Shown: positions 27,110 to 47,320 of the stretch, piece after piece | Layout of the letters: each line of letters starts with the position of its first letter | Position numbering within the stretch: the stretch's first letter is position 1 | From: Saccharicrinis aurantiacus | GTDB lineage: Bacteria > Bacteroidota > Bacteroidia > Bacteroidales > Marinilabiliaceae | Direction: 5' to 3' | Length of the DNA stretch: 64,000 bases | Assembly: GCF_001660705.2 (NCBI RefSeq) | Contig: NZ_LYBV02000007.1 | Coordinates: 310,001-374,000, forward strand | Notes under the pieces: model-generated | Told to the model about the DNA's origin: nothing | Databases searched by the model: none | The model's input: only the letters and a program-made list of their open reading frames with translations | Translations under genes and position numbers: made by a program

Positions 27110-28369
27110 ATGCCCAATATGATACAGCTAAGTTTAAAAAGGATTAGTGAGGAACAAATATTTATGGCAAGTGTAATACTTGTTAATGGAGGTAATTATC
27201 TCTATAATCTATTGCTAGGTAGGATATTAGGTCCTGCTGAATTTGCGAACGCTGCCTTACAGATTACCTTGTTATTAATTCTTTCCTTTTTAGGTATGAC
27301 CTTTCAGTTAACAACTGCTCGATTTGCCGTAGAACAGGAAAATAAGAATTGGATTGCACAACGTCATTTTTTAATTGTAGTATCTTCAATAGCCGGTATT
27401 ATTATTGGTGTTTTATTAATTATATTCTCTTCCCTGCTTCAAACAACATTTCATACCCAAACCAAATTAGTATTTATATTGCTTGGTATTGGTGTGCCAT
27501 TATATTTCATAATGAGTGTAATAAGGGGTACCTATCAAGGAAAACAGGCATTTAAGAAACTATCTATTTCGTATCAATCAGAAATGCTGAGTAGGCTTGT
27601 TATCACTCTTTCTTTCCTTTATTTAACGGGTATAGAATCATCAGTAATCGTTGCTATAGGTATTCTTCTATCATTTGTATTTGGTTTGTACCCATCAAAG
27701 CTAAAAAATTATAAAAGTGTTACTAAGTCAGAGATTAGGAATATAAATACTAGACCTATATATAGGTTTATGATGGTAACTGCGGGGTATGAACTTAGCC
27801 AGATCATTATTAATAATAGTGATGTGTTACTCGTTAAGCATTATTTTAATGACACGGAGGCTGGACTTTATTCTGCTTTGGCCTTAATAGGGAGAGTTGT
27901 ATATTTCGTGGCTTGGATGTTTGTAATGTTACTACTCCCTAAAGTTGTTCAAAAAAATAAAAATAATGAAAAAACAAAACCATTACTTTTTAAGTACATG
28001 TCAATGATAGCAGTACTATCTTTTGTTATTGTATGTACTTGTTATTTTGCCCCAAACCTTATTATTACTCTTATGTTTGGTTCTGCATATCTAAGCATGG
28101 CTCCGCTACTTTGGCAATATGCAGTAGCTACTTCCTTATTTGCTTTGGCTAATATTTTTGCCTATTACTTTTTATCACTCGATCAATATTTACCAGTTGT
28201 TCTGTCTGGTTTGTTTGGTTTGTTACAAGTTTTTTTAGTGGTGTTTTTTCATAATACTTTATATGAAGTTGTACATGTGCAAATTATAGCCATGGCTATT
28301 CTTTTATTTGCACAATTGGCTTTTTTTTTATTGACTATAAATGGATCAAAATCTAAAGGTTTAAGATAA
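27110..28369 (+). CDS. Oligosaccharide flippase family protein (Wzx/PelG-like)
   Basis: A 419-residue polytopic inner-membrane protein with about twelve hydrophobic helices and short polar loops, matching the polysaccharide-biosynthesis flippases of the MOP superfamily. The N-terminal half shows VNGGNYLYNLLLGRILGPAEF, a family-typical start. The central YRFMMVTAGYELSQIIINNSDVLLVKHYF segment begins the second half. It probably translocates a lipid-linked glycan or supports a synthase complex. The GT4 gene lies 101 bp downstream. The TTG start at 27110 region is replaced here by ATG, giving MPNMIQL; an ATG three residues later is also possible. Confidence 0.9.
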   Translation: MPNMIQLSLKRISEEQIFMASVILVNGGNYLYNLLLGRILGPAEFANAALQITLLLILSFLGMTFQLTTARFAVEQENKNWIAQRHFLIVVSSIAGIIIGVLLIIFSSLLQTTFHTQTKLVFILLGIGVPLYFIMSVIRGTYQGKQAFKKLSISYQSEMLSRLVITLSFLYLTGIESSVIVAIGILLSFVFGLYPSKLKNYKSVTKSEIRNINTRPIYRFMMVTAGYELSQIIINNSDVLLVKHYFNDTEAGLYSALALIGRVVYFVAWMFVMLLLPKVVQKNKNNEKTKPLLFKYMSMIAVLSFVIVCTCYFAPNLIITLMFGSAYLSMAPLLWQYAVATSLFALANIFAYYFLSLDQYLPVVLSGLFGLLQVFLVVFFHNTLYEVVHVQIIAMAILLFAQLAFFLLTINGSKSKGLR

Positions 28370-28470: not shown

Positions 28471-29691
28471 ATGAAATTAGGAATTGTTACAGCTTATCCA
28501 CCAAGTAAGGTTACTTTAAATGAATATGGGTATCATTTGTTACAGCACTTTAAAATGCAAAAAGGTATTACCGAGATTATCTTATTATGTGATAAAACTC
28601 AAGACGAAAAAGTTAATGTGCATTCTTCTGATGGGTGTAAAATAACCATTAAGGAATGTTGGGAATTCAATAGTTATAATAATCTTTTTAGTATTTCTAA
28701 GGCAATAAAAGAATCTAAGGCTGATTGTGTTTTTATTAACCTACAGTTTTTAAAATTTGGTGATAAAAAAATACCTGCAGCCTTGGGCTTAATGCTACCT
28801 CTTGTTAATAAAATTAAAGGAATACCAACTATTTCTCTGTTGCATAATATTCTTGAACAGGTGGATTTAGAAAGTGCTGGATTTACTAAAAATCCAATAC
28901 TTAAGAGACTTTATAGAGGGGTAGGGAATATGCTTACGCGATTTATTTTAAGTTCAGATATTGTAGCTGTAACCATTAGTAAATACGTAACTGTATTGAG
29001 TGAGAAATATAAAACAAAAAAAGTAAAGTTAGTACCACATGGCTCCTTCGAAACGCCTCCCGAACCTAGTTATGACCTTCCAAACGGGCCTAAACAAGTA
29101 ATGTCATTTGGTAAATTTGGAACTTATAAGAAAGTAGAAGCTATGATAGAGGCTGTTGAGAAAGTACGCCAACGTACCTCCGAGGATATTGAAATTGTTA
29201 TTGCCGGAACTGATAGTCCAAATACTCCTGGTTATTTAGATGGTGTTGCTAAAAAATATAGTGATATTGAAAAAATTCGTTTTACTGGCTATGTTGCTGA
29301 AGAAGATGTACCTGTCATTTTTAGTGAAGCCGCGATAGCCGTTTTTCCTTATACCTCTACCACCGGAAGTTCTGGTGTTTTGCATCAAGCAGGGAGTTAT
29401 GGAAAGGCTGTTGCTATGCCAGATTTAGGAGACTTGAGTATTTTAGTTAAAGAAGAAGGGTATCAGGGTGAGTTTTTTATTCCTGAGGATGTTGATTCAA
29501 TGTCGGAGGCAATTGAAAAGGTACTTGTAAATGATCAATATAGAATAGACCTTGGCGTAGCCAATTATGAAGCTGCCTGTTCCATACCAATGTCTAGAAT
29601 TGCAGAAATATATGTAGAAGAATTTAATAAACTTCTTGCATTAAAAGATAAAAGTAATCGTGTAGGGAAAGTTAAATCACAAACTGCATAG
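28471..29691 (+). CDS. Glycosyltransferase, GT4-like
   Basis: A 406-residue GT-B fold glycosyltransferase. The N-terminal acceptor domain begins KLGIVTAYPPSKVTLNEYG. The C-terminal donor domain shows MSFGKFGTYKKVEAMIEAV, IEIVIAGTD, IRFTGYVAEEDVP and YTSTTGSSGVLHQAGSYGKA, the usual GT4 nucleotide-sugar region. The usual first glutamate of the EX7E motif is not obvious in that last segment. It is probably cytoplasmic, adding a sugar to the polymer that the neighbouring flippase handles. The gene converges on the glycoside hydrolase gene. Confidence 0.9.
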   Translation: MKLGIVTAYPPSKVTLNEYGYHLLQHFKMQKGITEIILLCDKTQDEKVNVHSSDGCKITIKECWEFNSYNNLFSISKAIKESKADCVFINLQFLKFGDKKIPAALGLMLPLVNKIKGIPTISLLHNILEQVDLESAGFTKNPILKRLYRGVGNMLTRFILSSDIVAVTISKYVTVLSEKYKTKKVKLVPHGSFETPPEPSYDLPNGPKQVMSFGKFGTYKKVEAMIEAVEKVRQRTSEDIEIVIAGTDSPNTPGYLDGVAKKYSDIEKIRFTGYVAEEDVPVIFSEAAIAVFPYTSTTGSSGVLHQAGSYGKAVAMPDLGDLSILVKEEGYQGEFFIPEDVDSMSEAIEKVLVNDQYRIDLGVANYEAACSIPMSRIAEIYVEEFNKLLALKDKSNRVGKVKSQTA

Positions 29692-29716: not shown

Positions 29717-29762
29717 CCCTTTGTTTGATGGGTAAGGTTTTTATTGACCATCAAATAAAGGG
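29717..29762. terminator. Long hairpin between convergent GT4 and glycoside hydrolase genes
   Basis: Arms CCCTTTGTTTGATGG (29717-29731) and CCATCAAATAAAGGG (29748-29762) pair with one mismatch. The right arm overlaps the last codons of the hydrolase. No T run follows on either strand, so termination is inferred from the position only. Confidence 0.4.
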
Positions 29763-31276
29763 AAAGCTTCTTTTCTATTACCATTCTTATCAATAATACC
29801 AAAACTGCTTTGTTTGCTTTTGTGCCATGGTTTATAACCAACTACACTATTGGGTATGTGATTAAAATCGTAAAGAGTCCAAAAAACAAAACCAAGGTTT
29901 AATTTATCAATTTGTTTTTGCATTAGATTGTAATATTCTCTTTGTTTTTGTTGAGAACTAGAAAAGGCATTCCAAATACCTGAATACGAACTATACCCAT
30001 ACTCTTGTAGCATGATAGCTTTGTTGTTTATACTATTACTTAGTTTAGCTACTCTTTCGTTAAAAGTTTGTGGGTCGAGATAATCATGAAAAGACACAAA
30101 GTGTAGATGTGAGGCTAATAATTCAGCAGATTCTGTATTTGACCATCCTATTGTAATAGGATGGTTTGTATCCCAAATTTGCATATTTCTAATCATTTCG
30201 TTTAGCCACAAAATAACATTAGCTCTTCCTCTTGTTTCGAAGTCTAAATCAGGTTCATTTTTTATATCCCATGCAAATAGGGCAGGTTCTTCTTTTATAC
30301 TATTAATTATAGAATGTGCATGTTTTAGTGTTGGAGCTATATCTTTGACATCATAATTCCCGTAAAAATCGAATAAAGTAACAATCACCTTTAGTTCATT
30401 ATTATCCGCTAAAGTGAGTGTTTTTTTTAATTTCTTAATTTTTTCTTGATCAACATTTTCTTTACCAAACTCTTCGTACTGAACAAATATTCGTACAGTA
30501 TTTAATCCCATAGTTTTTAGTAAAGCAAAATCTTCAGCTATTATTTTTGGATCAAATTCTTCTCCAAACATTTTCCAAGGTGCAGATTGTGGATAATAAT
30601 TAAGACCTTTAATTTCTGCTATTTGCTTTAATAGCACACTATCATTAGTTAGGGTAGGTAATTCGTCACGCTTATTAATTTTCTCAAGTTTTAAATGTCT
30701 TATTCTCCAATAACCATCCTCAAAAAGTAGCATTGCTCTATAATCACAAATATTTTGTGTTGTAGCAATGGTGTTGCCATTATTAATATAATGAGAGGCT
30801 AACTCAATATTTTTATCTTCTAATATTACTATATGTCCATCTGCACTATAAAACTTCACATCGATATTATGAGTTAAAGCAGCTGATTGAACTTCAACTT
30901 TCTTTTTTTTATTAGAAAGTATAGTCCTTTTAATATTTTGGTATGCACTATCTGTATAGTAGTTTTTTATGCCGTATAAATTATTATCTCTGAGTGCATT
31001 GTGTTTTAATTGCCAAGCTTGAAGATAATCCTTTTCAATATTTAAGATAGTTTGTTTTTCTATTGTCCGCCCTATACAGTTGGCCGTTTCCCAATTGATC
31101 TTTATTGAATTGCTTAATTGTTGCGGCGTTGCTATATTTAATATTTTAGAGCGATCAGCTCCTGTATTCATATATGCTATTGCAGAACTAATCCCAAAAA
31201 TTATGATTCCATTGACTAGTAAAAAAGAAATAATAACAAGTACTCTGTAAAGGTTTTTATTAATAGACATCATCAT
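29741..31276 (-). CDS. Membrane-anchored glycoside hydrolase (GH5/clan A-like) with NTF2-like domain
   Basis: A 511-residue protein held by one N-terminal membrane helix (about residues 10-34), with the rest outside the cytoplasm. Residues about 80-195 look like an NTF2-type cone domain. A TIM-barrel follows (about 220-505). Predicted acid/base E341 lies in WDIKNEPD and nucleophile E425 in MLQEYGY, both at strand ends as in clan A hydrolases. It resembles the hydrolases kept in exopolysaccharide loci to trim or release polymer. The start overlaps the end of the lipoprotein gene by 17 bp; three consecutive ATG codons make the exact start uncertain. Confidence 0.85.
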   Translation of the reverse strand: MMMSINKNLYRVLVIISFLLVNGIIIFGISSAIAYMNTGADRSKILNIATPQQLSNSIKINWETANCIGRTIEKQTILNIEKDYLQAWQLKHNALRDNNLYGIKNYYTDSAYQNIKRTILSNKKKKVEVQSAALTHNIDVKFYSADGHIVILEDKNIELASHYINNGNTIATTQNICDYRAMLLFEDGYWRIRHLKLEKINKRDELPTLTNDSVLLKQIAEIKGLNYYPQSAPWKMFGEEFDPKIIAEDFALLKTMGLNTVRIFVQYEEFGKENVDQEKIKKLKKTLTLADNNELKVIVTLFDFYGNYDVKDIAPTLKHAHSIINSIKEEPALFAWDIKNEPDLDFETRGRANVILWLNEMIRNMQIWDTNHPITIGWSNTESAELLASHLHFVSFHDYLDPQTFNERVAKLSNSINNKAIMLQEYGYSSYSGIWNAFSSSQQKQREYYNLMQKQIDKLNLGFVFWTLYDFNHIPNSVVGYKPWHKSKQSSFGIIDKNGNRKEAFPLFDGQ

Positions 31277-32504
31277 AAATTTCTATTTGAATAGTTTTTT
31301 TAATTCCCATTAGAATTATTTCAGCAACATAAACATCTGCATCAAAGAAATGAGTAGAAAGATCAATAAAAGCTGTGCCACCTTGGGTATCAACTTCTGT
31401 TTCGTAGGTTACATTACCTTGTTTATTTATTATTCTGCATTCCACTATGTTACCATCAGGTAGTTTCTGACCCATATAACTTAAGATAGAGTGTATTTTT
31501 AGAATTCTCTGAGTAGTATCATAAGATAATTGGTAATTCAAGGTAGATTGTTTAAAATTTACCTTAATAGTGTTACTGCTTGAAGCTCCATCTACATAAG
31601 CTTTTATTTTCCAATATTGAGCTTCGGATGGATGCAAGAATTTAACATTTGCTTTCCCATTAATAGTGGTTCCACTGGCAGAAAAGAATTGATCTTTATT
31701 TGAATGAATAGTAAAGTTTATAATGGTTCCATCGCTAATTATATTGTTATAAATGTCTTTAATCTGACTGGTGTATATTTCCATTAATTGATTGCCATCT
31801 GCATAATTATGATTACACTTGCTGTAGATATTAAAGTTGTCTGGTATGGCAGGTGTAACGCTGCTTTCCATTTCCTTACTCTCACCATTTGTTGTTGCTG
31901 CAGCTATATAAAAAGGACCTGTCTGTTTTGTAGAAAAAATATTATGATGGACCAAGAAATCATTTGTTTTGAGTGCTATCTTATTTCTTTTGTTTTTAAA
32001 TTGTTCACTTACAATTATTGAACTGCCATTTATTAATGGGTTATCATAGATATCAGTTGGCACAACAACTAACATCGAAAAATCATGACCTCCAGCTACA
32101 ATACTGCGAGGTCCAAGGTAACTTTCTAGATTGTTATGTGATTGGTTTAGAGGTAATATGTTAATTATACCAGATTCTAAACTAATACCATTATGTACAA
32201 GTTGCCATTCGCATAATCCTGCTTTTTTGATTATACGATCATCCACGTTGAAAATTAGTGTGTCCTCTTTTATTAAAGGTTTTTGAATAGTTTGAACATA
32301 GGAATTACTTATAATTAAATGTAGTGCACTATCTCCTTTATAACTAAAACGCAGGTCAACAGGCTTGCCCGCATAAATATCTGTAATTGTATCTAGGTAG
32401 CTTACATATGAGATTGCACTACTCTCAACCTTGTTAGCTTTGGTACAAGCTATTAATATTATTAAGCACGCAAAATATATAATTTTAGTATTCCATTTTA
32501 TCAT
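31260..32504 (-). CDS. Lipoprotein with Ig-like beta domains
   Basis: A 414-residue lipoprotein. The signal peptide ends in the lipobox LIAC (cysteine near residue 20). The mature part has no recognised enzyme motif and reads as three or four beta-sandwich segments with repeated patterns such as VPTDIYDNPLINGSSIIV and SQIKDIYNNIISDGTIINF, typical of bacterial Ig-like domains. It lies between the GT-C-like gene (19 bp upstream) and the hydrolase (overlapping), so it is probably a periplasmic partner of the polysaccharide machinery. Confidence 0.8.
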   Translation of the reverse strand: MIKWNTKIIYFACLIILIACTKANKVESSAISYVSYLDTITDIYAGKPVDLRFSYKGDSALHLIISNSYVQTIQKPLIKEDTLIFNVDDRIIKKAGLCEWQLVHNGISLESGIINILPLNQSHNNLESYLGPRSIVAGGHDFSMLVVVPTDIYDNPLINGSSIIVSEQFKNKRNKIALKTNDFLVHHNIFSTKQTGPFYIAAATTNGESKEMESSVTPAIPDNFNIYSKCNHNYADGNQLMEIYTSQIKDIYNNIISDGTIINFTIHSNKDQFFSASGTTINGKANVKFLHPSEAQYWKIKAYVDGASSSNTIKVNFKQSTLNYQLSYDTTQRILKIHSILSYMGQKLPDGNIVECRIINKQGNVTYETEVDTQGGTAFIDLSTHFFDADVYVAEIILMGIKKTIQIEIYDDVY

Positions 32505-32523: not shown

Positions 32524-35500
32524 TTACCTAGGATTCCCTATGTAACTATTAGTCTCAAATTTTAAATATGCCGATTTATCATTTTTATAAGATAATAACT
32601 GATTCTCTTTATTGTCGTTATTTCTGTAGGGAAATAATATCTTACCAATTGTTTTGTTAGATAAACCATTCACAAAACAATTACTAATATCGCTACTAAT
32701 TATCTGTAAATTAGATAAGTCTACTGGTTTGTATTTAAAAGTTTGTGGACGATGAATTCGTGCACTTTCAGTAATGAATATATTGTCAATCCAAATTAGT
32801 TCTTTCCCTGTATTATAGTAAGATACGATTACTTGGGGAACAGTTGTTTCCTGAAGTCCGCTGTTAAAAACAGAGCCATAGTATACGCTATCAATAAATT
32901 GGATCCCTTGTAAATTTAAACTTTTATATAAATCGGTTATGGCAATATTTCCTTCGCATTGGATGTTAAATTTTTGTGGTTTATCCAGCCAGTCGACACT
33001 GGTAAACTCGTCGGGATTAAAAACTGTGGGTTTAGTATCTGAATTTCCCGACCAAGCTATGCCCTCAAAATCTACTCTAAATACGCTTGTTTCTTTGGGC
33101 ATTAGTTTATGCTTAATCATATATTTTGAATTGTACGAAGCAAGTTTTTGATCGTTTTGATTATAAAGGGAAACCTTAATGTTTACATCGGCAGGAACAT
33201 TATCTACATTTTGAATTTCACCAACAATTGCATAAACACTATCTAACTGGACTAATTTAGCTGAAAGAATTTCTATAACTGGCTGTTTTAGAGCATCCTC
33301 GTGATTGGTTTGTTGGGTTGTAATGCGTCTGCGGCCATGGTTATAATATTCGTTTTTATTGCCGGAGTAAAATTGGTTTGGAGGTATGTAGTTTCCATAT
33401 TTTAAAGGCTTTATGTACCACTTTGCATTGTGCTTTACAACTTCTCTCCGGTAAGTTCTTTGAATAACTTCTAAAGGAGTAACCCATTTTGCAACAACCT
33501 TAATAATTGCCTTATTATCTTTTTCATCAATTATAGTTGTTCCTATTGAGTCTAACTTAGCGTATGAGCTTAATAATCCATCAGTAACAGCAATTTTTTG
33601 CATATACATATCCATTTCCTCTCCAGAGTCGGGGTCTAAATAACTAAAGGCTCGTTCAAACTCTTTAAAATCAAGGGCATCGTAATATGCGTTTACAATA
33701 TTCTCAGGACTAACGTGAGAAGTATTTCTCATGTAGTAATAGTGAATACCAAAAGCCAAACATACGATAACCATAAAAGCCCAAACATGATTAAAATATG
33801 CTAGTTTGCCTGGGAACCTTTCATACTTTGTTGTAAATTTTAAATAATCAGGACACCCTTTCTTCTTAGGATTTATTTGTAAATACCAACGTCTTAGTAT
33901 ACTTATTATAAAAGCAAGAATTAGTGTAAGTATGGGATTAATTCCCCACATCAGGTTTATATACTTTGATGATTCATCTTTTGGTAGAATTTTGGATAAT
34001 GGGGGTACCCCCAACTTCTCCCATACTTGAATGCCATTTTCTAATCTACTTAATCGCTGCCAACCACAGAAGTAAAGTAATGGATCGTAAAACTTATCGT
34101 TAGAAAAAATATATTTCAGATTATACTTTTCAGGGACAACTAAAAACTGTTGCAACGAACCGATTCCTTCAATACCTCTAAATTTTGAATTCTCAAGTCG
34201 TTCCACTGCCCTTGTTGTTAATTCTGGTAATCGTCGTGCAGAATGGTAGTTTCCATCCACAGTTAATGCTGATGTTTGTGCAGACAACCAGGCCATTTGA
34301 TCTCCAAACCCTAAAGTTAGGTAGCGCCAATGGTAGTGTTGATCTTGATGCAGAAAGTTTATAATGGGAAGCATATTAATCTTCTCGGGTTGCGATGGTC
34401 TAAAGTAACTTAGACTTACAGTAAATACCACCATAAACAATAAACCTACCGCCATAAATCCACCAATAAGCCTGTGGTAAATTGAGCTAAAGTATTTTGT
34501 GAAAAATGCTTTTAAATCGCCTTCTGCTAATCGGTAAACAAGCTCTCCAAATATGGGTAAGGCCAAAATGGTAGCCCATAATGTAAATCTGTCTAATGTA
34601 AGTATATTGAAAGCAGTTTCTCCTAACATCATTCTTGGCAAAGGTGTTGTACCTCCAGTACCTAACAGACTTAATAGGGCTAAAGACAAACCGAAGAAAA
34701 CATAGCGTTTACTAAAGAAGCGGTAAAAAAGATAGGGCATAATAAAAAGCATTACTCCCCATGGAATTAGAAAAAATACTAAGCCAGAAGATCCTACTTC
34801 AATAAAATTATCACGCGACCCATGTGGAATAGCAACTTGCGTTATGGGGTTCTTTTTTGAATTAATCCAATACGGAAGAATGCAAAATATAATTAAAAAT
34901 AAAGAACAACCACCAAATACAACAATGCGCCAAAATGCTTGTTTAAAAGCGATCCAAAAGTGGAGAAGGCGTATTGCTTTAAAGGAGTCTACTTGCTCTC
35001 TAGCCAAGTCCATAACAGCCATACCTATAAGTGGAAAAATGAAGAATACCATACCAAAAATTGGTGTAACATGATGTGATGTAACTGTTAAGGCAATTAA
35101 AGATAACCCTTTAACGAGTTCTACCCTTTTTCCAGTCTTAATCCATAAATATATTTTAGGTAGCGAATGTAATAATACAGAAACACCCACGATGCTAGGT
35201 AATTGCCCAAAAAGGTGAAGCGTTTCTATAAAGGTTGTTGAAAAACAAGCTAATATAGCTGTGTAACCAGCAACACTGTAGTTGCCAGTTAACATTAAAG
35301 CAAATCGATATATGCCTGTAATGAATAAGATAATACCACAAAAAGCAACGGTAAATAATCCAAATTTTAGTCCGGCAATATAAGAAAGTAGAGCAATACT
35401 CTGATGAACTAGTGGTGGGTAGGATTGCACAGTAAATCCTGTATACCATCTGTATTCCCAAGGATCAAACCAGCTATTTGCATAATGGTCGGCAAAGAAC

Positions 35501-35610
35501 AAATGAATTAGTGCATCATATGTACTTTCTAATGTGAAAAATAAAGTAGACCCATGAAATGCCAATGCTGTTATAAGTGCAATATATAATAAAGAGTTTT
35601 TTGTATTCAT
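32524..35610 (-). CDS. Large GT-C-like membrane protein (PTPS-related type) with extracytoplasmic C-terminal domains
   Basis: A 1028-residue protein. Residues about 1-620 contain roughly twelve membrane helices. The first loop carries STYDALIHLFFADHYANSW and then YPPLVHQ, acidic and aromatic features of GT-C transferases using lipid-linked donors; the 6-pyruvoyl-tetrahydropterin-synthase-related membrane family is the closest match from memory. A further helix (about 615-640) leads to an NTF2-like region beginning ENIVNAYYDALDFKEFERAF and then two beta domains to the end. First gene of a minus-strand operon with the lipoprotein and hydrolase. It may transfer or polymerise sugars outside the membrane (inference). 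Confidence 0.75.
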   Translation of the reverse strand: MNTKNSLLYIALITALAFHGSTLFFTLESTYDALIHLFFADHYANSWFDPWEYRWYTGFTVQSYPPLVHQSIALLSYIAGLKFGLFTVAFCGIILFITGIYRFALMLTGNYSVAGYTAILACFSTTFIETLHLFGQLPSIVGVSVLLHSLPKIYLWIKTGKRVELVKGLSLIALTVTSHHVTPIFGMVFFIFPLIGMAVMDLAREQVDSFKAIRLLHFWIAFKQAFWRIVVFGGCSLFLIIFCILPYWINSKKNPITQVAIPHGSRDNFIEVGSSGLVFFLIPWGVMLFIMPYLFYRFFSKRYVFFGLSLALLSLLGTGGTTPLPRMMLGETAFNILTLDRFTLWATILALPIFGELVYRLAEGDLKAFFTKYFSSIYHRLIGGFMAVGLLFMVVFTVSLSYFRPSQPEKINMLPIINFLHQDQHYHWRYLTLGFGDQMAWLSAQTSALTVDGNYHSARRLPELTTRAVERLENSKFRGIEGIGSLQQFLVVPEKYNLKYIFSNDKFYDPLLYFCGWQRLSRLENGIQVWEKLGVPPLSKILPKDESSKYINLMWGINPILTLILAFIISILRRWYLQINPKKKGCPDYLKFTTKYERFPGKLAYFNHVWAFMVIVCLAFGIHYYYMRNTSHVSPENIVNAYYDALDFKEFERAFSYLDPDSGEEMDMYMQKIAVTDGLLSSYAKLDSIGTTIIDEKDNKAIIKVVAKWVTPLEVIQRTYRREVVKHNAKWYIKPLKYGNYIPPNQFYSGNKNEYYNHGRRRITTQQTNHEDALKQPVIEILSAKLVQLDSVYAIVGEIQNVDNVPADVNIKVSLYNQNDQKLASYNSKYMIKHKLMPKETSVFRVDFEGIAWSGNSDTKPTVFNPDEFTSVDWLDKPQKFNIQCEGNIAITDLYKSLNLQGIQFIDSVYYGSVFNSGLQETTVPQVIVSYYNTGKELIWIDNIFITESARIHRPQTFKYKPVDLSNLQIISSDISNCFVNGLSNKTIGKILFPYRNNDNKENQLLSYKNDKSAYLKFETNSYIGNPR

Positions 35611-35918: not shown

Positions 35919-37064
35919 ATGAAAATATTAGCAATTGATGACCAGAATCTCATTCTAATGTCAATCCAAAAAAGATTTTCACAATTGGGGTATGAAGTAT
36001 TTACAGCACAATCAGGATCAGAGGGAATAAAACTATTCGAAAAGGAAGATCCAAATTTGGTTATTGTAGATATTAACATGGAGGGTATGTCAGGTTTAGA
36101 GGTGGTAAAATACCTTAGAAATGAAAAAGAGTCTAACGTGCCAATACTTGTTCTCTCAGGAAACCAAGAGGAAGAGATTATTATGGATGGTTTTGAATTA
36201 GGGATTAATGACTATATGAAGAAACCCGTTAGCTTAAGAGAGGTAACAGCTAGGGTAAAGCGAATATTTAATAATCAACCCCATCCAGCATCTCTCAATT
36301 TGGAGGTTGATGAAGTAACTATGTTACAAAAAAACTGTATAGGTGTTGTGGTGCCTTGTTATAATGAAGCAGAACGGTTATTAGGAGGGGAATTTGCTGA
36401 CTTTGGCAAGTATAATACTGGATATCATATTTGTTTTGTAAATGATGGTAGTACAGATAATACTTTGGAACTTCTTGAAGATTTACAAAGAAAGAATAAG
36501 GATATTATAAGTGTTCTAAACTTAACGAAAAATGGAGGGAAAGCTGAAGCAGTTAGACAGGGTATACTTCATTTAGCTAAAGATCTTGAATTAGATTATC
36601 TTGGTTTTTTAGATGCTGATCTATCAACTAATTTTGAGGATTTTAAAGATTTAGTAGATACCATACAGCACTCTAATTATAAAATTGTGAGTGGCTCCAG
36701 AATTGATAGAATGGGAGCAAACATATCTAAAGAGTCTTCTCGGGCTTTAATCAGTTTAACAATCAATGCAATTATTCAAGCTATTTTAGGTATGAAATTT
36801 AAGGATACCCAATGTGGAGCAAAAGTAATGGATAGAGAGGTAGCTACAAATATGTTTAAAACAGTTTTTATTACTCGTTGGCTATTTGATGTTGAGATAT
36901 TTATGAGGATGAAATTATTTTATGGTGCAGATAGAGCCAAAAAAATGATATGCGAGCAGCCTCTAAAAAGATGGGAGCATATGGATGGTTCAAAATTATC
37001 AATGAAAGACTCCATAAAAATAGTTGGGCAACTAGCAAAAATTGCTACTCATTATAGATCCTAA
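35919..37064 (+). CDS. Receiver domain fused to GT2 glycosyltransferase (copy 1)
   Basis: A 381-residue cytoplasmic protein with two domains. Residues 1-120 are a complete receiver: D7, D8, phospho-acceptor D51 in VIVDINM, S80 in LVLSGN and K102 in MKKPVS. Residues about 138-375 are a GT2 domain of the DPM1/dolichyl-phosphate-sugar synthase type, with VVVPCYNEAERL, FVNDGSTDNT, the NGGKAEAVRQG loop, the metal motif FLDADLSTN and SGSRIDR followed by KDTQCGAK. No membrane helix is present. A receiver normally switches transcription or motility; here the only output is a glycosyltransferase, suggesting phosphorylation-controlled sugar transfer (inference). Confidence 0.95.
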   Translation: MKILAIDDQNLILMSIQKRFSQLGYEVFTAQSGSEGIKLFEKEDPNLVIVDINMEGMSGLEVVKYLRNEKESNVPILVLSGNQEEEIIMDGFELGINDYMKKPVSLREVTARVKRIFNNQPHPASLNLEVDEVTMLQKNCIGVVVPCYNEAERLLGGEFADFGKYNTGYHICFVNDGSTDNTLELLEDLQRKNKDIISVLNLTKNGGKAEAVRQGILHLAKDLELDYLGFLDADLSTNFEDFKDLVDTIQHSNYKIVSGSRIDRMGANISKESSRALISLTINAIIQAILGMKFKDTQCGAKVMDREVATNMFKTVFITRWLFDVEIFMRMKLFYGADRAKKMICEQPLKRWEHMDGSKLSMKDSIKIVGQLAKIATHYRS

Positions 37065-37103
37065 TAATTCAAGTAGACGCATTTTTAACAAGTTTAAAAA
37101 ATA

Positions 37104-37134
37104 ATAAAGCATCCCTAAAACAGGGATGCTTTAT
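37104..37134 (+). terminator. Intrinsic terminator after receiver-GT2 copy 1
   Basis: Perfect 13-bp stem (37104-37116 with 37122-37134), five-base loop, followed by TTATTTT. It separates the two tandem copies, so copy 2 needs its own promoter. Confidence 0.8.
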
Positions 37135-37254
37135 TATTTTGCCTTGGAAACTAAATTTCCTTATAAATGGATACCATTCTGTTTTAACTCCTTTAAAAAA
37201 GAAATTTTCATATTTAAATATATTACCAAGATGAATTAACTGCTAATATATTAT

Positions 37255-37285
37255 ATCTATCGATACAATAGTACCATTCGTCTAT
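37255..37285. promoter_or_regulatory. Candidate LytTR-type operator upstream of receiver-GT2 copy 2
   Basis: Half-sites ATCTATCGA (37255-37263) and ATTCGTCTA (37276-37284) start 21 bp apart, with TACC before the second, as at 20171-20201. The downstream half-site is centred about 35 bp before the candidate -7 box, a position suited to activation. Confidence 0.55.
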
Positions 37286-37314
37286 GCAGCTCTTATAGGG
37301 CTAGCTCAAAGTGC

Positions 37315-37322
37315 TAGTTTTG
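37315..37322 (+). promoter_or_regulatory. Candidate -7 box of receiver-GT2 copy 2
   Basis: TAGTTTTG matches TAnnTTTG exactly and lies 25 bp before the ATG. No TTTG -33 box is present at the usual distance; the LytTR-type half-site ends about 30 bp upstream instead. Confidence 0.45.
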
Positions 37323-37346
37323 ACATGTAAACAAAAACTTTGAGTC

Positions 37347-38492
37347 ATGAAAATTTTAGCCATAGATGATCAGAATTTGATTCTAATGTCAATTAGTAAG
37401 AGGTTTAGACAATTAGGTTACGAAGTAATTAGGGCTATATCAGGTATGCATGGGATAGCAAATTTTGATAAGTATAATCCTGATTTGGTAATAGTGGATA
37501 TTAACATGGAAGGTCTTTCAGGACTAGAAGTGGTAAAGTACATTCGTAATAAAAAGAAGTCTGACACGCCAATTTTAGTTTTATCGGGTAATATGGATGA
37601 AAATACCATTACGGAAGCATTTAACCTTGGTATTAATGATTACATGAAGAAACCTGTAAGTTTAAAAGAAATAGGAGCGCGAGTTAAAAGAATTTTCAAC
37701 AACGAGGGACACCCAAATTCTGTGAATATAAAAACAAAGCAGTCTACTATAATTCATAAACATTGTGTGGGGGTAATTGTACCCTGTTACAATGAGGCAG
37801 ATCGCCTAGATAGTGAAGCTTTTGAAAACTTTGTTCGCCGTAATCCAGGTTATCATTTATGTTTTGTAAATGATGGTAGTACTGACCATACATTAGGGGT
37901 TATTGAGGAATTAAGAGACAATAATTTAAATACAATTAGTGTATTAGATCTAGAAGAAAATGGAGGCAAAGCAGAGGCTGTTCGTCAAGGTGTATTGCAC
38001 TTGAGTAAAAACTCGCAGCTCGACTTTATTGGATTTTTAGATGCCGATTTATCTACTAATTTTGAAGATTTTAAAGATTTAGCTTATACCATCGAGCATT
38101 CTAATTATCAAATAGTAAGTGGGTCTAGGATTGATAGAATGGGAGCAACTATTGCTAAAGAATCATCGCGTAAGATTATCAGTTTAAGCATAAATACGAT
38201 CATTCAAAACATATTAGGAATGGGGTTTAAGGATACTCAATGTGGCGCTAAAATTATGACCAAGGAGATAGCTCAAAATATGTTTAATAAAAGATTTGTT
38301 ACCCAATGGCTATTTGATGTTGAGATTTTTATGCGAATGAAAAGTTTTTATGGTAAAGAAAGGGTGAAAGATTTAATTTGTGAGCAGCCACTAAAAAGGT
38401 GGGAACATATGGATGGTTCAAAATTATCGATGAAAGACTCACTAAAAATTGTAGGACAGTTAACCAAAATAGCAACACACTATAGCGCCTAA
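37347..38492 (+). CDS. Receiver domain fused to GT2 glycosyltransferase (copy 2)
   Basis: Same length (381) and architecture as the preceding copy, with both domains closely similar, so it arose by tandem duplication. The receiver keeps D7, D8, D51, S80 and K102. The GT2 part keeps VIVPCYNEADRL, FVNDGSTDHT, FLDADLSTN, SGSRIDR and KDTQCGAK. Differences concentrate in receiver helix alpha-2, in the interdomain linker (about 118-138) and in the early GT2 acceptor region, as expected if the copies differ in partner or acceptor. It has its own candidate operator and -7 box and its own terminator. Confidence 0.95.
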   Translation: MKILAIDDQNLILMSISKRFRQLGYEVIRAISGMHGIANFDKYNPDLVIVDINMEGLSGLEVVKYIRNKKKSDTPILVLSGNMDENTITEAFNLGINDYMKKPVSLKEIGARVKRIFNNEGHPNSVNIKTKQSTIIHKHCVGVIVPCYNEADRLDSEAFENFVRRNPGYHLCFVNDGSTDHTLGVIEELRDNNLNTISVLDLEENGGKAEAVRQGVLHLSKNSQLDFIGFLDADLSTNFEDFKDLAYTIEHSNYQIVSGSRIDRMGATIAKESSRKIISLSINTIIQNILGMGFKDTQCGAKIMTKEIAQNMFNKRFVTQWLFDVEIFMRMKSFYGKERVKDLICEQPLKRWEHMDGSKLSMKDSLKIVGQLTKIATHYSA

Positions 38493-38710: not shown

Positions 38711-41700
38711 TCAAGGCATTGGACGCTCTTCAAGTATTTTTAGACTAAAATTGTCAAAGTAAGCAACAGCCTCATTTGTAGAATTACCACCGTTGCCAAA
38801 TCTTAACATGATATATCCAAAATTATCAGTTGTTTTATTCCAAACAAATTTAACACTATTAGTTACCCAATTATCTTTAGTTTCTAACAAAATTTCTTCT
38901 TGTGCAGGACTTCCCCAAGGCGCAACACTATACCATAAACTGGGCACGGCAACTGTTTCTTCAGAAGGAACATAATAATCAAAATCAAACTGATAACTTT
39001 TACCCTCAACCAACTTTATATTTCGCGGTGTTTCAACCCAACACCATTTTCCCATAACTGCCCCTGTTGAAGCTAATCGCATTGCAAATGTACCTTCACT
39101 AGTATTAGTTGTAGAAACAGCTATAGTGCCATCACTAGGAGGATTACTAGCATTTATATGATTCCAAGAATAGTTCCATGCATCATCACCTTCATAGCTA
39201 TATGTATAAATTATTCCACTCTCAAAACCATAAATATTTTGATCTTCACACAAGTCAATTACTTCATTTTTTACCGAAACCTCTGTAAATGTTTCTAATG
39301 TTCTTTCATCAAGCGAAATTAAACTTGAACCAGTGTAAGATAATATAATATCATCATTGGTATAAATTGGCTCTGCTAAAGTTAATTCTAAAATAAAACT
39401 CATGTCGTTGTAAAAATCAAGTTCAGAAACCGCTATATTCTTATTACTAACACCAGCATCCGCATTATTTATAGATACAGCAAATGATGAAGAAATATCG
39501 CCTACAATATCCTGAGCAGAGGAAGATAAATAAATTTGAATCTTATTCAAATTCTCTCTGTGAGCAGATATCATTGTAAATGGTTTTGTTGTTGGTATAA
39601 CTTTAACTTTTAGTGGTACCTCAACAGAAGCATATATTTTACCATTAGGGTTAAATGTATTTCTTTCAGAAATCAGTCTTCCTATCATAAATGGATCATT
39701 TACCAATTTTTTAGGTATATAAATAATTTCTTGGGATTGGCTATGACCTGTAGTTACAAGTTCACTATCAACATACCAATTTCTTTCGTTTGGTTCTCCT
39801 ACCGTGGTTGCATCAACAATTTTTAGTTTTTCGTCAAACTTTAATTCTAATATTGGCCAATTTTCTGAATCGTCAATAACATCATCACTAGATACTTCTA
39901 ATTCAAGAGTTTCGGTGTCACCTGAAACTCTATAAACTTTAACCAAGGGTTTTATATCCTCTTTTGTTGCATCTGATACCCTAATTAATAGTTTCTGGTT
40001 TGCTGATTTATAAGCATATGGTCCATTATTTAAACGTAATGAACCTAATGATACGAGATAAGTACCTTCATTATTAAATGTATATATTGTAGCTTCATTA
40101 GCCTCTTCAATTAAAACACTATTGCGATATGAAAGCTCAACAATATCCCAATTACGCGAATCTGGTTTACCAATAGTAGAATTGTCTACGAGTTTTATAC
40201 TCTCACCTGTATTTAACTCTATAGTTTGTGTTTCTAATACCTGAGGATGATCCCAGTAATCCCAATCAACTATACCACTTTGTTCATAAACTAATTCATC
40301 GTGCCCTGTCTCACTGTTTATGACATATAATGCTGTTTCAGGTACTATTTGATCAAATATTTCCTTTACAGTATTAGCGTTCTCAAATTCTGCTATTGGC
40401 ATTGGCCACCAACCTTTAGTATTATCTGAATAATTAATTGCAGCTTGTTCAAAATCTATAAATGGAGAGCCGTAGTTATCTGGGGCTTCTCCTTTTTGTA
40501 AAATACTTCCCCACCTGGTACCCATACTTCCATCAGGTTTTGTGTAATGGTAATGTGTTCCATGATAAACCAACTGTGATAAGTCGAAAAAACGCTGAGT
40601 GGCAATTCCCCAGCGACGCATATCAATTTGGCGCTCGTTGTAACCCGTTAAGCATAGTTCCAATGGGCGCTCAATATACATCAATTGGTTAATCACATCA
40701 GTTCCGGTATAATCCTGATTATCGTATGTTGAATTGGTGAACTCCGCAGTTGAACCTAATAACTCCAATGCGGACCTATGCCTTACTCTATTAACATACA
40801 GTAGAGATTCATTTACCTTACCTGTTTTTGCTAAGCACTCTGCATACATTAAGTAAACATCAGTGAGATTAAATAAACGATAGTTTGGTAAATCAGAACC
40901 TTCTACAATTGAGTTCTCCGTTGTTGTTATATCCCAATTGGTTAACTTTCTATAATAAGCTACCCCCTGGCTATATTGATAATTTGTATTTATTGCAGGT
41001 TTACTACCATAATAAACTAATGAATCATCGGGCAGAGCAATAGAGTGCGATGCTCTTAAAGAATATGGGCGTGTAATACTTTGTTGAATTCCATTCTCAT
41101 CAGTATAGTAAAATTTATTTCGAGCATCAGTTGCATCTAGTTTATCATTTTTATAAGCCATAATTAACCAGCAACTTGGTATTAATGATTTATACCCTCC
41201 ATGAGCTGAAATGTACTTAGCTATATGATTATATGTGCTATGATTGTCGAAAGTGCATACAATCTCTAATAACGATTCGCTATTAAGCTCACCCTTTGTA
41301 GTCATATTTTCATCTACATTGGCCAAGGTATATGCGTCATTATTAATAATCGTTTCTAAATAAGATATAGCAGTTATAAAATCTTCTTGATACAAATAGT
41401 ATTTACCCAGTACTGTTGCCGCAGTTGCTTTTACAGGGCGTGATGCAAACTGATCATCTTCTTCAGTCTCTGCTTCCTTAAGTTTTGCAGTAGTACCTAA
41501 GTTGTTATAAGCATATTCCAAATCAGCAATAAAAAAGGCTCTTATTTTAGCTTCACCTTGTAACTCAACAGCATATTCGTCTGGCGCTTTAGGAGCATCT
41601 TCGAATAAATAAACACTTCCTTTATTGAAGTTAGAGTGTAGCCAAAAGTAAAATAAGCCTCTATAAAATCGTGCTTCTCCCATTAGTAAGTTCCATTTAT

Positions 41701-42727
41701 CCTTATCCTCTGGGGTATTTAATAATGCTTCAATATTCAGTAAACCTTCGATTACCCTGTTGGCTTTAAATATTGCCAAATAATGATTTATCCATTGTCG
41801 ATTAGGTGCATCTGACGCATTTGTAAACAATTGATTATATATTTCTGCATTACTAGCATTTGTTGGAGCAGGGCGCCCTATACCAGGGTATGCTAAATCA
41901 CTCCTCAAAGTATTTTGTATAAGACTGGTACAGCTTAGATCTCTCAACTTTTTATATACACCTATCAAGCCTGTTTCACAATCGGCAAGTGAAGTCCAAT
42001 ATTGTTGATCTTGATAATGAAAATTAAAGGAAACCTTTTTATGAGAATCAATAATTACATTACTAACGGTAGCGTATACATTATTTTGTTTGGCCTCAAA
42101 TGTAAATGTCTCATCTAAATTATATGCTACCTCAATTCTGTTTTCTTCTGGTTCTGATTTAAGTTTTGGTTGCTTATTAACATCATTGCTAACTTGCCAT
42201 TGTTCGGTAGTATTAGATGCATAAACTAAACTTGGATTACCACTACCCATGTTTTTTGAAACAAGTTTTACAGTAGCATTTAATTGTGATGATGTTACAC
42301 GTACAAAGTAGAGTCCCTGACTTAATCCTGATAGAGTATACTTGTGCGTTCCTTTATCCAGGTTGTTAAGGGCATTAGCTACAACTCTACCTTGTAAATC
42401 GTAAATAGATACCATAGTTTTTGCTTTAACAGAAGTACTAAATTCAATGTTAGTGTTACCTACCATTGGGTTAGGGTAAACTTTTAGTGGAGATTCTGTA
42501 AATGCATCCTTATCAATATTTGTAGCATTATCTGCAACAAAATATATCAGATCGTTACCATTAACATCGTATGTGGCACCAGTTGTGGTATTGATTATAG
42601 TAACTTCTTCAGGATAAATATTCTCTGTTACTACGTTAAAATTAACTCTGTATTCTTGTGCAATTATTGAAGAGCAGGTTAAAAAAAGGGACAGTAAAAC
42701 ACTAGTGAGTTTTTGCGTAAATTTCAT
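38711..42727 (-). CDS. Chimeric SusD-like protein with N-terminal sorting-like domain and C-terminal beta modules
   Basis: A 1338-residue exported protein, over twice the usual SusD length. The signal peptide (1-24, ending IIAQ) shows no good lipobox, unlike typical SusD lipoproteins. Residues 80-158 (PLKVYPNP to KLVSK) look like a T9SS type A sorting domain but sit near the N-terminus. Residues about 240-830 are a SusD/RagB fold, with WTSLADCETGLIGVYKKLRD, GEARFYRGLFYFWL and YLMYAECLAKTGK. Two related segments (GKPDSRNW, GEPNERNW) and a jelly-roll region with YFDNFSLKI follow. No SusC partner is adjacent. It may bind glycans at the surface (inference). Confidence 0.88.
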   Translation of the reverse strand: MKFTQKLTSVLLSLFLTCSSIIAQEYRVNFNVVTENIYPEEVTIINTTTGATYDVNGNDLIYFVADNATNIDKDAFTESPLKVYPNPMVGNTNIEFSTSVKAKTMVSIYDLQGRVVANALNNLDKGTHKYTLSGLSQGLYFVRVTSSQLNATVKLVSKNMGSGNPSLVYASNTTEQWQVSNDVNKQPKLKSEPEENRIEVAYNLDETFTFEAKQNNVYATVSNVIIDSHKKVSFNFHYQDQQYWTSLADCETGLIGVYKKLRDLSCTSLIQNTLRSDLAYPGIGRPAPTNASNAEIYNQLFTNASDAPNRQWINHYLAIFKANRVIEGLLNIEALLNTPEDKDKWNLLMGEARFYRGLFYFWLHSNFNKGSVYLFEDAPKAPDEYAVELQGEAKIRAFFIADLEYAYNNLGTTAKLKEAETEEDDQFASRPVKATAATVLGKYYLYQEDFITAISYLETIINNDAYTLANVDENMTTKGELNSESLLEIVCTFDNHSTYNHIAKYISAHGGYKSLIPSCWLIMAYKNDKLDATDARNKFYYTDENGIQQSITRPYSLRASHSIALPDDSLVYYGSKPAINTNYQYSQGVAYYRKLTNWDITTTENSIVEGSDLPNYRLFNLTDVYLMYAECLAKTGKVNESLLYVNRVRHRSALELLGSTAEFTNSTYDNQDYTGTDVINQLMYIERPLELCLTGYNERQIDMRRWGIATQRFFDLSQLVYHGTHYHYTKPDGSMGTRWGSILQKGEAPDNYGSPFIDFEQAAINYSDNTKGWWPMPIAEFENANTVKEIFDQIVPETALYVINSETGHDELVYEQSGIVDWDYWDHPQVLETQTIELNTGESIKLVDNSTIGKPDSRNWDIVELSYRNSVLIEEANEATIYTFNNEGTYLVSLGSLRLNNGPYAYKSANQKLLIRVSDATKEDIKPLVKVYRVSGDTETLELEVSSDDVIDDSENWPILELKFDEKLKIVDATTVGEPNERNWYVDSELVTTGHSQSQEIIYIPKKLVNDPFMIGRLISERNTFNPNGKIYASVEVPLKVKVIPTTKPFTMISAHRENLNKIQIYLSSSAQDIVGDISSSFAVSINNADAGVSNKNIAVSELDFYNDMSFILELTLAEPIYTNDDIILSYTGSSLISLDERTLETFTEVSVKNEVIDLCEDQNIYGFESGIIYTYSYEGDDAWNYSWNHINASNPPSDGTIAVSTTNTSEGTFAMRLASTGAVMGKWCWVETPRNIKLVEGKSYQFDFDYYVPSEETVAVPSLWYSVAPWGSPAQEEILLETKDNWVTNSVKFVWNKTTDNFGYIMLRFGNGGNSTNEAVAYFDNFSLKILEERPMP

Positions 42728-44875: not shown

Positions 44876-47320
44876 TTATTTGCTCACCATAAATCTGCCC
44901 CTCTCACTCTCACTACCCTCTTCTTTAATTACATAAACATATAGCCCATTCTGCAGTGTTGAATTGGTATATAGTATTCTATTACTTGCTGAAACAACAC
45001 TTAATTTTTGTTGATCCACTAATTTACCAGCTACATTGTACACACTAATAATTGGAGCACTCATGTTAAATGAAATTTTAATGGTAGTTTGGTCAGTAAA
45101 TGGGTTAGGAAAAACTGTGTTGTTCGATGTATCATCAGCCTCTTCCTCAATAATATTAGTGCTTATTGCTGATTTAGTAGTGAAGTTTACATCATCAATA
45201 CTTAACTCAAAATCTTCGAAAGTCTCTCCATTACCGTTTAACGAGAATACAATTCGTTTTACATCTTCAATATTCGCACTATTGCCGTTGTTATCCACAA
45301 AATCATTAAAATTAATACTGTACGTTTCTGCATTTGTATTTGCCGGAAGTATGTAGCGGAATCGGTTTTCCCAATTATTAATGCTTTCGTGCATCAATAC
45401 CAATTCGATAGGATGTGTACTTTGACTAGTAAATTCAATAGTATTAAAATCGGTTACATTTAGAGTTTGATCACCGGGTAATACTTGTCGGAATACATTA
45501 AAAGTGTTTTTAATCTTGCCCGAAGTATATAAATTACGTTCCACAAAATGTCTGTCTTCAGCAGCTTCTGTTGTACTTCTCGAAATATCATAGAAACTTA
45601 CTTCAGCGCTTGATTTTAAATAATCAACTCCCCAAGGGCCATCGGCCAAGTATAGCGCATCCATTTGTTCAGTAGCATCTGATTTAAGTGAGATACCAGC
45701 ATCAAATAAACTTCCAGTTTCTACAATAACAGTTTCATATCTATTACCCGATAATGCCACGGCTTTACTCATATTTTGGTTTGAAGAATGTTCGGTTTCT
45801 TTATAATTGGCATTGAAGTTTACACTTTTACTGGCATCGTTATTTATCAGCTCTAAATGTATTTTCCCGTTTTGATAGAATCCTGATTTAACAAAGACAC
45901 TAGGTATTTTCTCAACATTAACATCGCTGATTACATTCTTTTCTGATTTAAATTGGTCGATAATTTGATTGGCAATGGCAAATACCTGAGCATTGTTACC
46001 ACCCCATATCTGAAAATTATAATAGCTTCCTTCAGGGTATTGGTCGATATTCCAATAGCTAAAAAGCTCGTAATTGTTACCATTTTCTTTAATAGAGAAA
46101 CTTAAGGTATTTTCTACTTGGCCAGTGGCGCGTAGTAGTTTAGAATGAATAATTTGATGTCCGCGTACCTGAACTAAACGCACATCTTGTAAGCTTGAGT
46201 TATTTAAGCGGTCGCAGATGGCTTTTGAATGATCGTATACCGCATTGGGAGTATAGGTTGCTAAAGTTACTGCAATACGTTTATCATTTTTGTAATAATC
46301 AACAGAGAATACTTCAGTGGCATTGGTAATCTCCACCAAGTCCTCAGGGCTCGATACATAAGCCGTTTCTGTGCCAAACATACCTGTTGAAGGAATATAA
46401 GTTTGTAGTTTAGATGTCGATGAGGATTTTAAACTTTGATGCGCTGCCATACTGATCTGAGCAGATTTAGTATTCGTAAAATTTTGCTTTACACCTCGTG
46501 AGAAATTACGTTTTGCAATTTTTTCAGCTAGAGTACCGTTGCTTTCTAATCCCCCGTTATTACCCGATGTAACATCAGTTGCTGTTGAAACATCTGTAAT
46601 GTTTTCGGTTGTAATAGCGTCGTAAGGATTTGCAGTTACGTAAAAAATGGCATCGTTAAAATCTTGATCACACGAGGCATAATCTCTTCTGATATCTTCA
46701 AAACCTAATATGATTCTTTCGTTTTCAGGGTCTGCTAATAGTACGTTGTGTTGACGTAAGTTGCTATCTGCTTCAGGATTGTAGTTTGTGTTTGAATATA
46801 CCTGCCAATGCCCGTCAGTAACGGCACCATTTTTCCAGCCATTGGCTAATAGTACCCAACCAATGCTGGTTCCTGCTTTAAAGTTCCCAATTTTCACTTT
46901 ATTACCGGTAAGAAGTCCGCCACCACTATAAAGCGCGGATACATTAGGGAAGATTATAGTAATATCTTCTTTACTTGGTGCATCTTCAGGTGCTTGACCG
47001 CTTGGGTAAGTGTAAAAACCCAATACATTTTTATAACCAGCGCCCTCACCAACAAAGGTTACAAACACCTCTGCATTGTCATTTAAATGAATATCTGTTT
47101 CATATCCGGAACTTATATAATGCGGATTATAATCAGGAACTGGATACCCTTCGGGTAAAGCGTTGGCAATCATATCTAAAGTTTCCTGACTTACATTGTC
47201 AGAAGGATCTAGTAAATACTCAGGTGTTCCGTTGCTGGTGTAGGTGCCTAAGTAATTATAGTTTTGAGCTTGTATACTTAAGGCAATTAAGGTGATTGAT
47301 AAAAGTAAAATATGTTTCAT
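44876..47320 (-). CDS. DUF4114 protein with C-terminal T9SS sorting domain
   Basis: An 814-residue secreted protein. The signal peptide begins MKHILLLS and ends at IQAQ. The frame opens at a TTG (47341), but that codon lies in a -7 box, so ATG 47320 is chosen. Residues about 90-235 form a DUF4114-like domain with GWVLLANGW and IILGFEDIRRDYASCDQDFNDAIFY in its calcium-binding-like end. The central part (LruC-like beta domains) is not recognised with certainty. The last 80 residues, from VFPNPFTDQTTI to GLYVYVIKEEG, are a type A sorting domain for T9SS export. Probably a cell-surface adhesin-like protein. Confidence 0.85.
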   Translation of the reverse strand: MKHILLLSITLIALSIQAQNYNYLGTYTSNGTPEYLLDPSDNVSQETLDMIANALPEGYPVPDYNPHYISSGYETDIHLNDNAEVFVTFVGEGAGYKNVLGFYTYPSGQAPEDAPSKEDITIIFPNVSALYSGGGLLTGNKVKIGNFKAGTSIGWVLLANGWKNGAVTDGHWQVYSNTNYNPEADSNLRQHNVLLADPENERIILGFEDIRRDYASCDQDFNDAIFYVTANPYDAITTENITDVSTATDVTSGNNGGLESNGTLAEKIAKRNFSRGVKQNFTNTKSAQISMAAHQSLKSSSTSKLQTYIPSTGMFGTETAYVSSPEDLVEITNATEVFSVDYYKNDKRIAVTLATYTPNAVYDHSKAICDRLNNSSLQDVRLVQVRGHQIIHSKLLRATGQVENTLSFSIKENGNNYELFSYWNIDQYPEGSYYNFQIWGGNNAQVFAIANQIIDQFKSEKNVISDVNVEKIPSVFVKSGFYQNGKIHLELINNDASKSVNFNANYKETEHSSNQNMSKAVALSGNRYETVIVETGSLFDAGISLKSDATEQMDALYLADGPWGVDYLKSSAEVSFYDISRSTTEAAEDRHFVERNLYTSGKIKNTFNVFRQVLPGDQTLNVTDFNTIEFTSQSTHPIELVLMHESINNWENRFRYILPANTNAETYSINFNDFVDNNGNSANIEDVKRIVFSLNGNGETFEDFELSIDDVNFTTKSAISTNIIEEEADDTSNNTVFPNPFTDQTTIKISFNMSAPIISVYNVAGKLVDQQKLSVVSASNRILYTNSTLQNGLYVYVIKEEGSESERGRFMVSK

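Follow-up and report, generated by a model that had tools for sequence, protein, structure and literature searches.

Receiver-glycosyltransferase fusion proteins beside a polysaccharide island and a putative H-NOX relay operon in Saccharicrinis aurantiacus

The 64,000-nucleotide stretch of Saccharicrinis aurantiacus DNA analysed here (the window) carries two neighbouring genes, copy A and copy B, each predicted to encode a protein of 381 amino acids (aa) that joins an N-terminal receiver to a glycosyltransferase family 2 (GT2) domain. Both genes start with ATG and were defined from the open reading frame (ORF) list, Pfam matches and residue alignment:

35919-37064, + strand: receiver-GT2 fusion, copy A, 381 aa
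35919 (start) to 36266 (end), + strand: receiver of copy A, about residues 1-116
36333-37061, + strand: GT2 domain of copy A, about residues 139-381
37347-38492, + strand: receiver-GT2 fusion, copy B, 381 aa
38568-38592, + strand: terminator-like stem-loop 3' of copy B, from consensus matching alone (1 found against 1.2 expected by chance)

Pfam places Response_reg (PF00072) at residues 3-113 with E-values of 2.7e-27 in copy A and 1.6e-24 in copy B, and Glycos_transf_2 at residues 143-309 of copy A (3.4e-23) and 143-311 of copy B (2.1e-21). PF00535 is the best glycosyltransferase family for both copies, while PF13641 reaches 20 bits in copy A, under its cut-off of 27, and 28.6 bits in copy B, barely over it. 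Residues D7, D8, D51, S80 and K102 are kept in both, and each receiver is thus predicted to have the phosphoacceptor aspartate and the complete set of conserved partner residues of a response regulator; the metal-binding motif D232-A233-D234 (DAD) is also intact in both. Coordinates, Pfam matches and residues all agree with the original prediction, which had described two 381-residue receiver-GT2 proteins with an intact receiver quintet and DAD motif. The copies are 71% identical and are sisters in the tree (support 100/99), and a search of the genome found no third protein with both domains, the remaining matches being separate receivers or separate GT2s.

The solved structures closest to the GT2 part are GtrB (sll0501; profile E 7.9e-18) and ArnC (1.2e-17), and the DAD of the window GT2 aligns with the DAD of each. 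The earlier label "DPM1-type" was only roughly right, the nearest solved relatives being these two enzymes. Relationship and DxD-type metal motif together place the domain, by sequence, with the GtrB/ArnC-like polyprenyl-phosphate glycosyltransferases, and it probably charges polyprenyl phosphate with a sugar. GtrB and ArnC lack a receiver and possess C-terminal membrane helices, whereas the window fusion carries a receiver and shows no clear transmembrane helix, with a single hydrophobic peak of 1.64 in copy A and none in copy B.

The distribution of the fusion was examined in a phylum sample of 395 genomes, using the GT2 part as query at a threshold of 1e-30. Matches were found in 16 genomes, 12 of which (the source genome counted) hold the fused form, and the remaining four hold GT2s of about 245-275 aa only. 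Within the family of the window the fusion occurs in 1 of 71 genomes, that of the window alone; two further genomes match with a GT2 at 39-40% that is about 250 aa long. Among 344 genomes of Flavobacteriaceae (the family of G134), 80 matches spanning receiver and GT2 were found across 72 genomes, which rules out a sequencing or frame artefact or a local oddity; a receiver-less match occurs in 30 of the 344, two of which hold both forms. The 72 include two genomes in which the fusion is cut by a contig end (G588 and G544) and two in which the GT2 is decayed (G595 and G599). Named holders, among the 80 of 520 relatives listed, include Zobellia, Maribacter, Algibacter, Zunongwangia, Lutibacter, Tenacibaculum, Croceitalea and Flavobacterium, and two Saprospiraceae bins also have fusions (54 and 58%). 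Second copies may have been missed, since 6 candidates were scored per genome in the phylum fusion search, 5 in Flavobacteriaceae and 2 for the membrane protein described below. The window proteins nest inside the Flavobacteriaceae set at no resolved position, and the G+C content of the window is 31.1-33.0% at 20-40 kb against 33.7-37.4% elsewhere; tree placement and low G+C fit horizontal transfer into the window lineage, without proving it.

Residue conservation was tabulated for 44 fusion proteins, leaving out L076 (whose contig is that of G257), the interrupted L082, the partial ends in L072 and L080, receiver-only paralogues and receiver-less GT2s. The receiver quintet reads D,D,D,S,K in 40 of the proteins and D,D,D,T,K in one, so that 41 of 44 have the S/T form. 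In eight of eight pairs the nonsynonymous proportion of differences (pN) lies far below the synonymous one (pS) in both receiver and GT2, the linker drifting, although the ratios are rough because synonymous sites are close to saturation. Both domains are thus under purifying selection in these pairs, and the earlier argument that the phosphorylation site is selected holds up on both counts. A 25-residue GT2 core is complete in 37 of the 44 proteins; the incomplete cores are those of G559, with DAG for DAD, of a second copy in G335 (G335b; 23/25), and of five clearly decayed copies (8-15/25).

The receiver quintet is intact in four of these five decayed copies. In each of the five, the closest intact protein resembles the receiver more than the GT2, the opposite of the usual order (GT2 nearer in 32 of the 38 other fusion proteins). 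Because of this pattern, and because receiver-only paralogues of 123 aa adjoin the fusion in two Algibacter loci, the receiver seems to be valuable on its own in some copies; a plain alternative is slow decay caught midway. That the fusions of G595 and G599 (37-38% identity) arose independently a second time was considered and rejected, these being decayed-GT2 copies with receivers 57-65% identical to known fusions. At the corresponding loci (L229 and L230) the receiver is intact, the GT2 is decayed, and the fetched stretch does not contain the polysaccharide island. At the G559 locus (L232) three consecutive GT2-type genes, of which two are receiver-less and one is the DAG fusion, stand beside LytTR, Hpt-like, FIST-like and kinase genes.

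On the other side of copy A lies a set of genes for a putative polysaccharide pathway:

32524-35610, - strand: large 1028-aa membrane protein with 8 hydrophobic peaks, in divergent orientation to copy A; island marker
31260-32504, - strand: lipoprotein-like secreted protein; Big_1 match under its cut-off
29741-31276, - strand: glycosidase-like TIM barrel with N-terminal anchor; Glyco_hydro_2_C 21.3 bits, cut-off 21
28471-29691, + strand: GT4-type glycosyltransferase; Glycos_transf_1
27110-28369, + strand: Wzx-like flippase; Polysacc_synt
24877-26949, - strand: TPR protein with hydrophobic N-terminus; C-terminal beta-barrel guessed, OMP_b-brl only E 0.28

The membrane protein was detected in 12 of the 395 phylum genomes, the same 12 that hold the fusion, and orthologues of the membrane protein, the Big_1-like protein, the glycosidase-like protein and the GT4 stand beside the fusion in 11 of the 11 other fusion genomes of that sample. 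The flippase was seen in 10 of these 11, the stretch from G335 ending before it can be judged, and the TPR gene lies at the far end of the island in most named loci of sufficient length. G335 also has a second, more distant fusion located away from the island. Gene content and synteny make the fusion part of a conserved polysaccharide island. The original prediction had suggested looking for the fusion across genomes near polysaccharide genes, and this is borne out by the 72 Flavobacteriaceae genomes and by the island beside the fusion in every other phylum holder. The TPR protein may be the export channel. The 1028-aa protein has neither a Pfam match of its own nor a solved relative, and naming it by sequence fails, PTPS_related matching weakly and in 3 of 13 homologues only. 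In a related Sediminibacterium island ManC follows the GT2 and a GtrA/DPMS-TM protein is present, a hint at GDP-mannose and lipid-linked sugar; the genes it shares with the window are only 27-43% identical. A Flavobacterium covae record (L082) has both genes, those for the fusion and for the large membrane protein, split into fragments.

Some islands have a GT2 of the same family with no receiver. Such a gene adjoins the membrane-protein gene in Aquimarina (L084), 2-583A (L085) and R1Bin212 (L107), and the membrane proteins of these islands nest in the tree among those of fusion islands. Aquimarina has the fusion elsewhere in its genome; searches of 2-583A and R1Bin212 for the fusion found none. 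In two Algibacter loci a decayed short GT2 stands beside the fusion, its best matches being receiver-less GT2s. We read these arrangements as two alternative GT2s that were once adjacent and were then lost differently. Gain of the receiver only inside Flavobacteriaceae was dropped as an explanation, since Aquimarina and two Saprospiraceae with a receiver-less GT2 in the island encode the full fusion elsewhere. A Caulobacterales contig (L105:293-1474) carries a receiver-less GT2 of the same family, with a flippase and the beginning of the large membrane protein coming next; the C-terminal extension of this GT2 looks STAS-like by eye, and nothing in Pfam matched it.

Adjoining the TPR gene of the island is an operon (20257-24874) for a putative H-NOX relay:

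20257-20691, + strand: single-domain receiver, REC1
20938-21480, + strand: H-NOX; HNOB 4e-41
21458-23833, + strand: PAS-rich histidine kinase
23837-24154, + strand: Hpt-like phosphotransfer protein; own Hpt E 0.048, L193 homologue 3e-5, at the Pfam cut-off
24155-24874, + strand: LytTR response regulator

With an H-NOX gene beside a histidine kinase gene and receivers, the operon has the composition of an H-NOX/histidine kinase (HK) network. Of 19 stretches around H-NOX taken from other genomes, 15 contain the full set of REC1, H-NOX, one or more kinases, the Hpt-like protein and LytTR, H-NOX in one of these (L191) being placed by coordinates from the genome search. The TPR gene is present in 13 of the 19 stretches, namely 12 of the full-set 15 and L188, which shows kinase, Hpt-like and LytTR genes and whose H-NOX is known from the genome search alone; L195 (Saprospiraceae) has H-NOX and kinase only. 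A gene of 376-397 aa lies between two kinase genes in 13 of the 19, and the one product tested against Pfam is a FIST protein (PF08495). In the window no gene of this size lies between the kinase and Hpt-like genes, the search for FIST being confined to the window.

Taken together, these features suggest that the fusions are response regulators with an enzymatic output, phosphorylated by the H-NOX relay and gating the supply of lipid-linked sugar, a proposal that we regard as about evenly poised. The receiver is linked to a GtrB/ArnC-like GT2 that would load polyprenyl phosphate with sugar, and the island would use this lipid-linked sugar to make or decorate, and to export, a polysaccharide. 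The receiver would most likely be phosphorylated through the adjoining H-NOX, histidine kinase and Hpt-like proteins, and the same relay would also serve LytTR, so that one signal, probably nitric oxide (NO), would act on both transcription and enzyme. The domain anatomy, its conservation and selection, the linkage of the genes and the failure to find GGDEF in the 12 fusion genomes are observations, whereas we infer that phosphotransfer takes place, that catalysis is controlled and in which direction, which sugar and product are involved, and that NO is the signal.

The association of fusion and H-NOX is marked. H-NOX occurs in 27 of the 395 phylum genomes, including all 12 with the fusion. 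Among 19 genomes with named loci, 13 carrying a fusion locus and 6 a receiver-less one, 18 have it, F. hydatis being the exception. Within Flavobacteriaceae, 66 of the 72 genomes with the fusion carry it and 59 of the 272 without, the latter comprising 21 of 28 with the receiver-less form only and 38 of 244 with neither form. Of the 66, 60 have fusion and H-NOX on the same contig (median distance 18.5 kb), 59 of them within 35 kb.

Several observations weigh against the proposed relay control. The Fisher value for the Flavobacteriaceae comparison (p 1.6e-28) overstates the evidence because the genomes are related, the physical linkage being independent of that value, and linkage alone does not prove phosphotransfer. 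No H-NOX was found in six of the 72 fusion genomes, four of them 73-84% complete and two 99%, nor in the search of F. hydatis. H-NOX and island are on different contigs in G088, G312, G257 and G335, the H-NOX contig of G335 also bearing a second fusion, and the H-NOX stretches of G088 and G312 (L185 and L186) show REC1, H-NOX and kinase, with Hpt-like and LytTR genes not seen alongside. Individual sequences match Hpt weakly, and the role of the 1028-aa membrane protein as a user of lipid-linked sugar is a guess. In the receiver, H replaces D8 in 2 of the 44 tabulated proteins, and N8 with L80 occurs in one, whose GT2 is decayed. Finally, 28 of the 344 Flavobacteriaceae genomes have a receiver-less GT2 match only, 21 of them with H-NOX, and the receiver-less GT2 lies inside the island in all three of the neighbourhoods viewed (G541, G667, which is L085, and G795, which is L107); its presence there implies that a fused receiver is not required for the pathway to operate and speaks against the receiver being indispensable.

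The frequent H-NOX in genomes with the receiver-less form only is also what would be expected if the H-NOX operon acted on the island transcriptionally, LytTR alone accounting for the linkage, while the fusion receiver was phosphorylated by an unlinked kinase whose signal is not NO; the source genome is rich in other receiver matches, several within frames of >1300 aa. We judge this unlikely, given that nearly all fusion genomes hold H-NOX, that an Hpt-like gene directly adjoins the fusion gene in Aquimarina, and that several receivers lie below a single H-NOX kinase in Shewanella, as the sections of PMC8738867 on these networks describe. It is likewise rather improbable that the receiver governs where the GT2 sits or what it binds, by dimerisation or docking on a membrane complex, and not catalysis as such. 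The lack of a strong transmembrane helix would make recruitment a possible control point, the intact quintets of most decayed-GT2 copies would suit an interaction role, and EpsW of Myxococcus xanthus is proposed, in the part of PMC12802240 that treats it, to act by promoting the EpsZ dimer, but the GT2 core complete in most fusion proteins indicates that catalysis matters too. A vestigial or phosphate-sink receiver that leaves the GT2 unaffected, as the Algibacter receiver-only paralogues and decayed-GT2 copies with intact receivers might suggest, is very improbable given retention of the fusion in 72 Flavobacteriaceae genomes and purifying selection on both domains.

Relay control of the fusion has partial precedents. 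Receivers fused to a BcsA-like glycosyltransferase occur in Methanobacteriaceae (MTH_548), and attachment of receivers to metabolic enzymes is a known trend, according to the account of these fusions in PMC5847659. These proteins resemble the window fusions in pairing one or more receivers with a glycosyltransferase domain as a predicted enzymatic output; they differ in that the same account names their glycosyltransferase domain as PF13641, reports them from three archaeal genera only and mentions no linked NO relay. Phosphorylated EpsW stimulates EpsZ, the transferase that initiates exopolysaccharide (EPS) synthesis in M. xanthus, in trans, as outlined in PMC12802240. The feature in common with the control proposed for the window fusions would be a receiver that, once phosphorylated, stimulates a sugar transferase acting on a lipid carrier, in M. 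xanthus at the point where EPS synthesis begins. EpsW and EpsZ are, however, separate proteins, EpsZ is a phosphoglycosyl transferase and not a GT2, and the kinase, DifE, belongs to a chemosensory system. The discussion in PMC12802240 also mentions small monotopic phosphoglycosyl transferases (monoPGTs) with fused receivers. These share with the window proteins a receiver in cis with a glycan-assembly transferase and differ in belonging to an unrelated enzyme family. We know of no experiment on receiver-monoPGT fusions.

For H-NOX, the relevant sections of PMC8738867 describe output through cyclic-di-GMP (c-di-GMP) enzymes, through quorum sensing or through gene regulation, and name FIST proteins as neighbours. 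The networks of Shewanella, Vibrio and others are like that of the window in combining H-NOX with a kinase, several receivers and neighbouring FIST proteins (kin of NosP); unlike their outputs, the one proposed here is a glycosyltransferase. A c-di-GMP enzyme, the commonest published output though not a strict requirement, did not emerge from a GGDEF search, which found none in the 12 fusion genomes and was positive in 8 of 14 controls; EAL and HD-GYP were not searched for. The sections consulted of PMC8195603, PMC13259868 and PMC11260094 contain nothing bearing on the fusion. Literature searches, mostly at listing level, returned no fusion of a receiver to a GtrB-like GT2 and no H-NOX-linked polysaccharide cluster in Bacteroidota.

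The kind of fusion is therefore already known, and the combination of GtrB-like GT2, H-NOX relay and absence of GGDEF is missing from the literature searched. The fusion that the original prediction described exists, is conserved and occurs with polysaccharide genes; the archaeal and Myxococcus precedents temper the word "unusual", which the prediction applied to a direct sugar-transfer output. The linked H-NOX operon, the receiver-less GT2s of some islands and the decayed-GT2 copies with a receiver all lie outside the coordinates that it covered. The conserved linked genes unite sensor, relay and enzyme, and their holders include named marine flavobacterial strains. If the proposal is true, H-NOX gains a direct metabolic output, and bacteria without c-di-GMP may directly control surface polysaccharide; to our knowledge, enzyme-level switching of polysaccharide synthesis in bacteria without c-di-GMP is an open question. 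More tentatively, and with doubt prevailing, NO sensing by H-NOX, and by FIST/NosP-like proteins, may be wired by phosphorelay directly onto a lipid-linked sugar synthase in Bacteroidota without c-di-GMP, the decayed-GT2 copies serving as regulatory subunits of that synthase.

Two other origins or roles were discarded. For a defence role PADLOC returned only PD-T4-6, matching the receiver domain weakly (1.2e-4 and 5.4e-4), and a viral scan returned 23 relatives at 23-31% identity, none full-length; the viral contig L227 matches residues 3-264 at 25% identity.

Further features of the window include a protein that may be cargo of the same pathway and whose homologues, in several flavobacteria, are found close to the H-NOX operon:

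44876-47341, - strand: DUF4114 protein with a type IX secretion system (T9SS) sorting tail

T9SS sorting tails are usually C-terminal. A SusD-family protein (38711-42727, - strand) has a T9SS sorting-tail domain at residues 83-156, N-terminal to the SusD part. Four ORFs of 769-783 aa stand in tandem at 50471-59882 (- strand); the single one compared with Pfam is a MacB/FtsX-type permease, and a further ORF follows at 59938.

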